Of a stretch of DNA of 47,672 nt, positions 5,239-8,524 are shown piece by piece. This stretch comes from Halorubrum sp. Boch-26 (GTDB lineage Archaea > Halobacteriota > Halobacteria > Halobacteriales > Haloferacaceae), in contig NZ_JARANT010000010.1 of NCBI RefSeq assembly GCF_029889805.1, forward strand, positions 1 to 47,672, given 5' to 3'. Each line of letters opens with the position of its first letter. The first letter of the stretch is position 1. The notes under the pieces are model-generated. The model did no database searches. It saw only the letters and a list, made by a program, of their open reading frames with translations, and was not told the origin of the DNA. The translations under genes were made by a program, and so were the position numbers.

Positions 5239-6552
5239 TTATAAATACTCGCCGGCCGCGGCGGCCGCCGCCCGTCCGCTCTCTAAGGCCCCTTGAATCG
5301 ACGACCACTCCGTGTAGTCGCCGGCGAGGACGACGGGTCCCGCCGGGTCGTCCGGGTCCGGGAGGTCGGCGTGGACGCCCGGCGGCTGCGCGAACTGCGC
5401 GAACCGGATCCGATGGAGGTCAAGCGTCTCCAGCCCGTCGAAGTCGCGGTCGGGATACCACGCCGCCAGCGCGTCGCGGACGTCGTCGCGGAGGGAGTTC
5501 ACGGGGCGGTCCAAGGACTCCTCGCCGAGGAACGTCGCCGCGAGCAGCGCGCGGTCGTCGGGGGCGTACTCGGGCGCGACCTCCGACATCGGAATCACGG
5601 CGTTGGGGGACGCTTCCGCGGCGTTGAGCAGGATCCGCTTGCCCGTCTCAAGCGATTCGCCCGCGGGGAGCGCGTACCAGCCGGTGACGTTCGGGACGCC
5701 CTCCGTGGGGATCGAGTCGACGCCCGTGAGCTTCCGGGCCTCCGGCGGGGTGGTCGCGACGACGACCGCGTCCGTCTCGCGGGTCGACCCGTCCGCGAGC
5801 GCGACGGTCGCGCCCTCGGCGTCGGCCGCGCCGGTCCGGAAGGGGATCCGGCCCTGGCCGGCGGTCCGGACCGACTCGACGTCTTCGCCCGTCTCGATCG
5901 CCACGCCGGCCTCGCGGGCGCGAGCGGCGAGCGCCTCGGGGATCGCCGCCATCCCCTCCGCGGGGACGCCGATGGCGCCGCGACCCATCGCGCGGAACGT
6001 GTATTCGAACACCTGCTTCGAGGTCGAGAGGCGCCGGTCGAGCGTGATCCCGCCGTAGAACGGCTCGACGAAGTTCTCCGCGTAGTCGTCGGCGAACCCC
6101 CAGTCGCGGAGGTACTCGCGGATCGACGCGTCGCGGCCGGCGAAGAAGTCGTCTTCGTCGCGGTTCGAGAGGTCGTACCGGAGCGCGAGCGTCCGGAGCT
6201 TGTCGGAGAAGGAGACCTCGTCGTTCAGGAGCGAGGGGATCGCCCCGCGGGGGTCGCGGAGGGGGTCCGAGAGGGTCGAGCGCGACCCCGGCCGACAGAT
6301 GGTCGCCCCGGGGGCGAAGCGCCGGACGTCGAGGGCGTCGACGTCGAGTTCGGCGTCGACCGCCGGGTAGCTCGTGAACAGCACCTGGAAGCCGCGGTCG
6401 AGCGTGAACCCGTCGACGGTCTCGGTCCGCACGCGCCCGCCGACTTCGGGCCGTCGCTCGTACAGCGTCACGTCCGCGCCCGCCTCGGCGAGCCGAGTCG
6501 CCGCGACGAGCCCGGCGAGCCCGCCGCCGACGACGGTGGCGTCTCCGTACAT
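5239..6552 (-). CDS. FAD-dependent amine oxidase / phytoene-desaturase-like oxidoreductase
   Basis: A 437-residue flavoprotein. The N-terminal dinucleotide motif VVGGGLAGLVAATRLAEAG (residues 7-25) and the following YERRPEVGGRVRT are typical of the protoporphyrinogen oxidase / phytoene desaturase / monoamine oxidase superfamily. The C-terminal VVLAGDYTEWSSIQGALESG is the usual second FAD-binding segment. It probably performs an FAD-linked desaturation or oxidation, perhaps on an isoprenoid, but no adjacent carotenoid gene fixes the substrate. A TATA-like CTTATAAC lies 26 nt before the ATG. It is convergent with E1-alpha and stands alone. Confidence 0.82.
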   Translation of the reverse strand: MYGDATVVGGGLAGLVAATRLAEAGADVTLYERRPEVGGRVRTETVDGFTLDRGFQVLFTSYPAVDAELDVDALDVRRFAPGATICRPGSRSTLSDPLRDPRGAIPSLLNDEVSFSDKLRTLALRYDLSNRDEDDFFAGRDASIREYLRDWGFADDYAENFVEPFYGGITLDRRLSTSKQVFEYTFRAMGRGAIGVPAEGMAAIPEALAARAREAGVAIETGEDVESVRTAGQGRIPFRTGAADAEGATVALADGSTRETDAVVVATTPPEARKLTGVDSIPTEGVPNVTGWYALPAGESLETGKRILLNAAEASPNAVIPMSEVAPEYAPDDRALLAATFLGEESLDRPVNSLRDDVRDALAAWYPDRDFDGLETLDLHRIRFAQFAQPPGVHADLPDPDDPAGPVVLAGDYTEWSSIQGALESGRAAAAAAGEYL

Positions 6553-6795: not shown

Positions 6796-7248
6796 ATGAG
6801 CGCCCCCGACGACCGGTGGCTGTACTACGGCGCGGTCGCGACCCCGATCGACCGCGCCGAGCGGACGTTCGGCTACGTCGACGACGCGGAGCATCCCCGA
6901 TTCGGCACGTTCCCGACCGCGTTCCTCGGCCGATCCGACGTGTCGGTCGACGAGGAACGCGGTCGGATCTCGCTTTCGGCGCTGGACCGGGACCTGTACC
7001 GGCGGTTCGGGAACGGGTTCGACCGCCTCGACGTCGGAGTGCTCGCCGCCGACCTCGTCGAGGAGACGCTTTTCACGCCCCGCGAAGCGCGGATCGTCGT
7101 GCTGTACGGCTGGTTCGACATGGACCGCGACACGGCGGCCGACGCGCTCGAAACGGATCCCGACGGCGTGGCCTCGCTGGCGGCGGCGGTCCGGAGCCGA
7201 CGAGAGCGGGCCGACCGCACGGCGACGGTCCGGTTCGTCCCGGAGTAG
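6796..7248 (+). CDS. Hypothetical protein with a possible C-terminal helix-turn-helix
   Basis: This 150-residue acidic protein is not one I recognise. Residues about 93-140, beginning FTPREARIVVLYGWFDMD and continuing RDTAADALETDPDGVASL then a basic helix, resemble the sigma-70 region 4 / LuxR-type pattern (TPREAEVL then a recognition helix). It could therefore bind DNA, but the match is by eye and the recognition helix is acidic. The ATG at 6796 is chosen because the protein-like composition begins there and upstream in-frame sequence is low-complexity Arg/Pro. It precedes the threonine-synthase-like gene by 49 bp in the same direction. Confidence 0.65.
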   Translation: MSAPDDRWLYYGAVATPIDRAERTFGYVDDAEHPRFGTFPTAFLGRSDVSVDEERGRISLSALDRDLYRRFGNGFDRLDVGVLAADLVEETLFTPREARIVVLYGWFDMDRDTAADALETDPDGVASLAAAVRSRRERADRTATVRFVPE

Positions 7249-7297: not shown

Positions 7298-8524
7298 ATG
7301 GAGTCGACGGAGACGACGACGGCGTTCCGCGGGCTGGAGAGTCGCGCGTCGGGTCGCGTCCACGAGACGGCCGACCCGACGGTGGTGTCGGCGGAAGAGC
7401 AGGCGCGGGGACTCGACCCCGCCTACGACTACGACGCGGTCGACCCGGAGACGCTGCTGGGGGGCCCGCAGGACGGGCCGGCCGGGACGGGTCGCGGCCA
7501 CTGGCGCTTCGACGCGCTGCTCCCGTTCCCGGCGGGAGAGGCCATCTCGGCCGGCGAGGGCGCCACGCCGCTGGTCCCGACGGAGCGGCTCGCGGACGAG
7601 CTCGACGTCGACGCGGTGTACGTGAAAGACGAGGGCCGGAACCCGACGGGCACGGTGTTCGACCGCGGCCTCTCGGTCGCGCTCACCGCGGTGGCGGCGC
7701 GGGCCGCCGAGGGGCAGGACGTGGAGCCCCTCGCGTGTGCGAGCCCCGGCAACGCCGGACAGTCGATGGCGGCGTACGCGGGCCGGGCCGACCTGCGCTC
7801 GTACGCGTTCGTCCCCTCGCGCTGCGCGTTCTCGAACAAGGCGATGACCAACGTCCACGGCGGCGACATGCGCGTGGTCGGCGGACGGTTCCCGGACGCG
7901 GCCGCGGCGGTCGACGAGCAGCTGGAGACCGAGTACACGGACCTCGCTGAGTTCGCGACGCCGTACCGCCACGACGGCGTGAAGACGCTCGCGTTCGAGC
8001 TGGTCGCCGACCTCGACGCGGCGCCCGACGTCGTCGTCGTCCCGACCGGATCCGGCGAGGTGGTCGCCGCCGTTTATAAGGGTTTCACCGAGCTGAAGCG
8101 GGTCGGCGCGATCGGCGCCGTCCCGAAGGTGGTCGCGGCGCAGGCCGCGGGCTGCGCGCCGATCGCGGCGGCGGTCGAGCGCGGGCTCGACGAGCCGGAG
8201 CCGTGGGAGACCCCCGACACGATCTGCGGCGAGTTGGAGATCGCCGACCCCGCCGGCGGCGCGGCCGCGGTCGAGGCGGTTACGGAGAGCGGCGGGACGG
8301 CGGTCGGCGTCGAGGACGAGGACGTGCTCGCGAGCGCGGTCGCCGTCGCGCAGAACGAGGTGCTGGAGATGGGCGCCACGGGCGGCGCCGCGCCCGCCGG
8401 CGCGTGGGCGCTCAAAGAGGAGGGGTTCTTCGACGGCGACGAGACGGTCGTCCTGATCAACAGCGACGCCGGGCTGAAGACGCCGGACGTACTGCGCAGC
8501 CACCTGATGGGACAGGGTATATAA
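7298..8524 (+). CDS. Threonine-synthase-like protein lacking the PLP lysine
   Basis: This 408-residue protein has the fold-type II PLP enzyme pattern of threonine synthase, which converts O-phosphohomoserine to threonine. Visible landmarks are an N-terminal segment before GATPLVPTERLADEL, VKDEGRNPTG (109-118), the substrate loop SPGNAGQSMAAYAGR (149-163), a phosphate-binding-like PTGSGEVVAAVYKGF and the C-terminal NSDAGLKTPDV. In true threonine synthases NPTG is followed by SFKDRG, whose Lys forms the Schiff base with PLP. Here the sequence is TVFDRG, so Phe121 sits at the Lys position. The codons (ACG GTG TTC GAC CGC GGC) are unambiguous. Normal threonine synthase activity is therefore unlikely unless another lysine substitutes. 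A regulatory or scaffold role is speculation. Confidence 0.82.
   Translation: MESTETTTAFRGLESRASGRVHETADPTVVSAEEQARGLDPAYDYDAVDPETLLGGPQDGPAGTGRGHWRFDALLPFPAGEAISAGEGATPLVPTERLADELDVDAVYVKDEGRNPTGTVFDRGLSVALTAVAARAAEGQDVEPLACASPGNAGQSMAAYAGRADLRSYAFVPSRCAFSNKAMTNVHGGDMRVVGGRFPDAAAAVDEQLETEYTDLAEFATPYRHDGVKTLAFELVADLDAAPDVVVVPTGSGEVVAAVYKGFTELKRVGAIGAVPKVVAAQAAGCAPIAAAVERGLDEPEPWETPDTICGELEIADPAGGAAAVEAVTESGGTAVGVEDEDVLASAVAVAQNEVLEMGATGGAAPAGAWALKEEGFFDGDETVVLINSDAGLKTPDVLRSHLMGQGI

Follow-up and report, generated by a model that had tools for sequence, protein, structure and literature searches.

A lysine-less threonine-synthase-like protein of the Haloferacaceae, a probable pseudoenzyme at a locus shared across haloarchaea

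In the textbook view, the PLP enzymes are a family defined by one lysine, and relatives lacking it are as a rule isolated curiosities. Antizyme inhibitors and Rv3778c of M. tuberculosis belong to PLP folds other than fold-type II. Both are homologues of PLP enzymes that lack either the activity or the lysine that binds PLP covalently, and both are thought or known to be non-catalytic (antizyme inhibitors, ODC-like, PMC2748086; Rv3778c, PMC12910592). The case described here differs in that it concerns fold-type II and a whole archaeal family, that the lysine seems to have been lost repeatedly at one locus, and that the pocket has gained new conserved residues.

The missing lysine and the relation to threonine synthase

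The gene lies in a window of 47,672 nucleotides from Halorubrum sp. Boch-26 (contig NZ_JARANT010000010.1, forward strand), the window being the whole stretch of DNA analysed. The open reading frame begins with ATG, has no internal stops and encodes 408 residues, with the following features around the catalytic motif.

7298–8524, plus strand: ThrC-like protein of 408 residues lacking the PLP lysine; PF00291 E 2.7e-59, best PDB matches being threonine synthases
7625–7669, plus strand: KDEGRNPTGTVFDRG motif, K110–G124
7658–7660, plus strand: codon TTC of Phe121, which corresponds to the Schiff-base lysine K61 in T. thermophilus ThrC
7742–7765, plus strand: SPGNAGQS loop (residues 149–156), retained

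In a PDB sequence search, the closest solved structures to the window protein are 2zsj (9e-44), 1uim (1e-41) and 2d1f (1e-40), all of them threonine synthases. NPTGTVFDRG pairs without gaps with NPTGSFKDRG of the Aquifex, Thermus and M. tuberculosis ThrC in the PDB alignments, and these place Phe121 where the Schiff-base lysine stands, as the first-pass annotation had claimed. Phe occupies the same position in other loci of Halorubrum, namely L014/L065 (94% identity with the window protein) and L068 (93%), and the remaining Haloferacaceae orthologues have other non-lysine residues, so Phe121 is not a sequencing slip. The lysine loss is real but is not the whole change, which includes the phosphate loop, the zinc ribbon and new carboxylates, embraces a whole family and is seemingly recurrent.

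The predicted structure of the window protein (mean pLDDT 78, pTM 0.84) resembles ThrC (Foldseek E 2.5e-22), and ThrC structures are its best VIA-align matches, with Z of 33–39.5 and rmsd of 3.0–3.5 over 316–390 residues. For comparison, a predicted Lys-containing orthologue has a mean pLDDT of 88.5 and a Z of up to 47.6 against ThrC. The window protein and ThrC (TIGR00260; PDB 1uim/1v7c, 2zsj, 2d1f, 6nmx) have in common the fold, the KxEGxNPTGxxxDRG frame, the GN loop, the equivalent of R160 and the KT motif. In contrast, ThrC possesses the Schiff-base lysine K61 and a phosphate-binding loop PVGNAGN, whereas the window protein has Phe121 and PTGSGEV. Furthermore, N154–S155 of ThrC becomes Glu218–Phe219 in the window protein and Thr-Phe in the Lys-containing orthologues. 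In T. thermophilus ThrC this pair provides the ligands of the substrate phosphate. The Lys-containing orthologues lack it and therefore may themselves differ from ordinary threonine synthases.

By the curated models, the window protein is not ThrC: it scores 130.9 bits against the TIGR00260 cut-off of 167.1 and 247.1 bits against the PRK08197 cut-off of 303, which a Lys-containing orthologue passes with 374. Eight PALP matches occur in the window genome (2.76 Mb; completeness 95%). A second, canonical thrC in the same genome, for which the first-pass annotation had advised a search, is present as L003 (SFKDRGM, 298.6 bits against the same TIGR00260 cut-off), together with a thrB above its model cut-off. 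Because these separate genes coexist with it, the reading of the window gene as the only thrC of the genome fails. The genome also encodes L005 (G000:C68), a further ThrC-like protein with PTGSFKDRGA, distinct from the canonical ThrC. In H. volcanii, a transposon insertion in thrC3 (HVO_2969) was rescued by Gly, Ser and Thr jointly, and no single amino acid sufficed (PMC4300041); thrC3 is probably the canonical ThrC of that species.

The altered pocket and N-terminus

The first-pass annotation held that, apart from the lysine, the fold including the SPGNAGQS loop was preserved. This is correct for the fold and the GNAGQ loop but not for the phosphate loop and other pocket residues, at which the following differences are found.

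7298–7420, plus strand: N-terminal region, CxxC...CxxC and zinc-ribbon-like in Lys-containing orthologues; no Cys in the window protein
7949–7951, plus strand: Glu218, equivalent to N154 in T. thermophilus ThrC and to Thr in Lys-containing orthologues; Glu in 92% of Haloferacaceae Lys-less sequences
8042–8062, plus strand: former PLP phosphate loop PTGSGEV (249–255), aligned with PTGGGVG of Lys-containing orthologues
8231–8233, plus strand: Glu312, equivalent to A240 in T. thermophilus ThrC and to Gly in Lys-containing orthologues; present in 100% of the Haloferacaceae Lys-less sequences
8465–8467, plus strand: Asp390, G318 of T. thermophilus ThrC, adjoining the residue that faces PLP N1, Gly in Lys-containing orthologues; Asp/Glu in 98–99%

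At the N-terminus, the CxxC–CxxC pattern is found in 61/64 Lys-containing and 27/30 other Lys-less sequences, and in 32/100 Haloferacaceae Lys-less ones. In the phosphate loop, the Haloferacaceae form replaces Gly by Ser/Thr at 252, Val by Glu at 254 and Gly by Val/Leu at 255; Ser/Thr252 and Glu254 each occur in 100% of the Haloferacaceae Lys-less sequences. Neither E254 nor E312 varies among 45 representatives (85% identity). The carboxylates E254, E312, D/E390 and E218, whose placement in the pocket is read from the alignment to ThrC, are not found as a set in the other Lys-less lineages.

The 20 marker columns of the change are concentrated in the pocket (7/33 pocket columns and 13/360 others; odds ratio 7.2, p 5e-4). 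We chose the pocket columns ourselves, on the basis of what is known of ThrC structures and with part of the column table already in view. A newly fixed substitute lysine was sought among the marker columns, and none is there. The stretch 304–318 around E312 has a pLDDT below 50 in the predicted structure. Acidic residues are abundant in the proteins of halophiles generally, which counts against reading the new carboxylates as special.

Distribution, shared locus and recurrence of the loss

The orthologue is present in 61/61 Haloferacaceae genomes of an order-wide sample, with best E-values of 8e-87 or lower and about 1e-50 for canonical ThrC. Among 100 distinct Haloferacaceae locus sequences, none has Lys at the Schiff-base position; Leu accounts for 80%, Tyr for 8%, Phe and Val for 4% each, and His, Ile and Thr for the remainder. 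The Phe of the window protein is a recent CTC-to-TTC variant found in a few Halorubrum. A distinct clade with conserved Phe, raised in the first-pass annotation, was not found in this survey of orthologues, in which Leu prevails in the Haloferacaceae clade.

The complete reading frame, which had been taken as a sign of selection, is indeed intact and under purifying selection. By the Nei–Gojobori method, dN/dS of the window gene against near relatives is 0.10–0.15 for the closest, with a median of 0.21 and values of about 0.1–0.25 overall, and random pairs give 0.38 in the Haloferacaceae Lys-less group versus 0.26–0.29 in Lys-containing groups. The gene is therefore constrained, yet evolves somewhat faster than the Lys-containing groups. 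In one Halorubrum-group genome the orthologue (L105; G120:C1:543318-556064) is frameshifted at codon 243/244, with halves otherwise well conserved on both sides of a recent break or sequence error. In addition, a second, Lys-containing copy (TFKDRGQ, GGGVG; L134–L163, L260–L270) is scattered over several Haloferacaceae genera with unconserved neighbours. The usual neighbourhood surrounds 0/16 of the copies examined, and no such copy was found in the window genome. A horizontal origin of the copy is suggested by a tree without pocket columns, in which it joins rows of f14 and f3.

In the usual neighbourhood, a divergent gene for an FAD oxidoreductase lies upstream of the orthologue, and genes for a DtxR-type regulator, a GDT1-type antiporter and a LysE-type exporter follow downstream on its own strand. 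In the window, the upstream gene is as follows.

5239–6552, minus strand: divergent gene of the FAD/NAD-dependent amine-oxidase family, in many haloarchaea the neighbour normally found on the upstream side

Immediately upstream of the gene, the window also encodes a small protein of about 150 residues without a Pfam match (6796–7248, plus strand). Halorubrum retains only the upstream side of the neighbourhood: the DtxR–GDT1–LysE linkage was not found in the examined Halorubrum loci, the window included, and the window genome has its LysE and GDT1 genes elsewhere. In other haloarchaeal families, the orthologues at the locus have kept the lysine (TFKDRGQ, PTGGGVGL) or lost it. Lys-containing and Lys-less genes have a common neighbourhood across families f1, f4, f5, f6, f7, f12, f14 and f17, and in f7 the two kinds have the same local neighbours. 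LysE lies within 4.5 kb downstream at 33/53 Haloferacaceae Lys-less, 11/31 other Lys-less and 13/29 other Lys-containing loci, counts that include a few loci twice. The downstream genes were rejected as proof of one operon, given the examined Halorubrum loci and a median gap of 76 bases to the next gene, with which separate promoters are possible.

The Lys-containing haloarchaeal orthologue (NCBIfam PRK08197, 'threonine synthase') is about 50% identical to the window protein, stands at the same locus and shares with it DRG, GNAGQ and the C-terminal RSHLMGQG. It possesses the lysine, the GGGVG loop and usually CxxC–CxxC, whereas the window protein lacks all three. In H. volcanii, HVO_0817 is a flavin amine oxidoreductase (PMC4300041) and HVO_0819 is SirR (PMC11349517); from the gene order, HVO_0818, expected between them, is presumably the orthologue. 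Among the papers searched, none describes this protein, and HVO_0818 gave nothing.

In a first tree, with seven motif columns removed, nearly all Lys-less rows form one clade (99 SH-aLRT). In a tree without any pocket columns, this clade dissolves and the Lys-less rows fall among their own families: those of f7 group with a Lys-containing f7 row (90/85) and those of f12 with a Lys-containing f12 row (93/89). L051, a metagenome assembly sequence, lies within genus g24 (100/94), and L180 adjoins the g42 rows (93/49). This tree requires a minimum of eight changes at the lysine position, although many deep branches are weakly placed and a distinction between losses and regains needs a reconciled tree. 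With groups named after the first tree had been viewed, one ancient clade of all Lys-less rows is rejected (AU p 3e-6), as it is without two obvious late losses (p 0.0017) and, with modest significance, in the most lenient version with L126 added (p 0.022); one f7 clade (p 0.25) and one f12 clade (p 0.38) are not rejected. Since the pocket-free tree dissolves the clade and the test rejects it, the first grouping apparently reflects convergence of the pocket. Recurrent loss of the lysine in haloarchaea is thus well supported, whereas an exact count is not.

Convergent change of an active site can mislead a tree, as the Lys-less clade depends on keeping the pocket columns. L126 (TSKDRG, family f7) and L193 (TVKDRG, family f4) have the lysine amid Lys-less relatives, by retention or regain, and the phosphate loop of L193 is badly altered (PLEGTEGL).

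A probable pseudoenzyme and the alternatives

As expected of a pseudoenzyme, the catalytic residue is lost and the protein is conserved under purifying selection. The reading we prefer, at a probability of about 60%, is that the Haloferacaceae protein is non-catalytic, has no PLP aldimine and has been adapted to the binding of a ligand that is cationic or an amino acid. In this view, a threonine-synthase paralogue occupies one conserved haloarchaeal locus, and the gene is its Haloferacaceae form. The ancestral form, presumably a PLP enzyme, would persist in other families with its PLP lysine, glycine-rich phosphate loop and zinc-ribbon-like N-terminus; the Haloferacaceae lineage would have lost the first two of these and often the third, and fixed carboxylates at positions that probably line the ThrC cofactor and substrate pocket. 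With neither lysine nor glycine loop, a PLP internal aldimine is impossible at the usual place. The retained GNAGQ together with the new carboxylates suggests a site for a ligand that is cationic or resembles an amino acid: the carboxylate of an amino-acid-like molecule would be held by the loop, and the acidic residues would bind a cationic group or a metal ion in the former place of PLP. A cation antiporter, a metal-dependent regulator and an amino-acid-type exporter as neighbours agree with such a ligand but do not prove it, because the Lys-containing orthologues have the same neighbours. The role of the protein may be one of sensing or of partnership.

That partnership could take the form of a regulatory subunit in mixed oligomers, which would tune canonical ThrC or another PLP enzyme, as lysine-less subunits tune some other PLP enzymes. 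Canonical ThrC is encoded in the same genome, and the ThrC-like fold extends over most of the length, so a dimer surface could persist; this reading is nevertheless unlikely, as the gene does not adjoin thrC, the family split from ThrC before the lysine was lost, and the neighbourhood is identical around the Lys-containing orthologues. It is also conceivable, if distinctly improbable, that other, PLP-free chemistry takes place at a new catalytic or metal site made of Ser/Thr252-Gly-Glu254, Glu312 and Asp/Glu390. Invariant Glu254 and Glu312, with 252 and 390 nearly so, are what such a site would show, and in most Haloferacaceae the DtxR-type metal regulator and GDT1-type cation antiporter adjoin the gene. 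These genes also flank the Lys-containing orthologues, however, and therefore do not point to the new residues; to our knowledge, no PLP-independent enzyme of fold-type II has been described.

Fold-type II mutants without the lysine can retain PLP, and here PLP could still be bound non-covalently, since N152 and S389, the counterparts of N87 and T317 of ThrC, are unchanged residues or conservative replacements. An enzyme that works with PLP is unlikely in a protein of this family with neither the aldimine lysine nor the glycine loop and with Glu in the loop. Very little weight accordingly goes to the reading in which PLP remains bound without an aldimine or through another lysine, such as K110, K181, K229 or K394, with some activity kept: these lysines are conserved, as is N152, but equally so alongside the Schiff-base lysine, so they are no replacements, and Glu254 stands in a loop meant for the PLP phosphate from which glycine 255 is gone. 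Least credible of all is a decaying gene heading for loss. Branches longer than in the Lys-containing orthologues and the single frameshifted copy would suit it, but it is already contradicted by conservation, that is, by presence in every sampled Haloferacaceae genome, dN/dS well below 1 and invariant new residues.

With the pseudoenzyme reading preferred for the Haloferacaceae protein, a broader proposal is advanced only tentatively, the odds being somewhat against it: at one locus across an archaeal order, a PLP enzyme may have been repeatedly and independently switched off by loss of its lysine while the gene was kept, the Haloferacaceae pocket having been rebuilt with carboxylates for a cationic ligand. 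Because related genomes, in some cases of a single genus, have either the Lys-containing or the Lys-less version at this locus, the transition from enzyme to pseudoenzyme is open to tracing and testing, for which Haloferax volcanii, with its tractable genetics, is probably also suitable. Meanwhile, a curated homology model names the Lys-containing orthologues threonine synthase, a name that may mislead metabolic models of both kinds.
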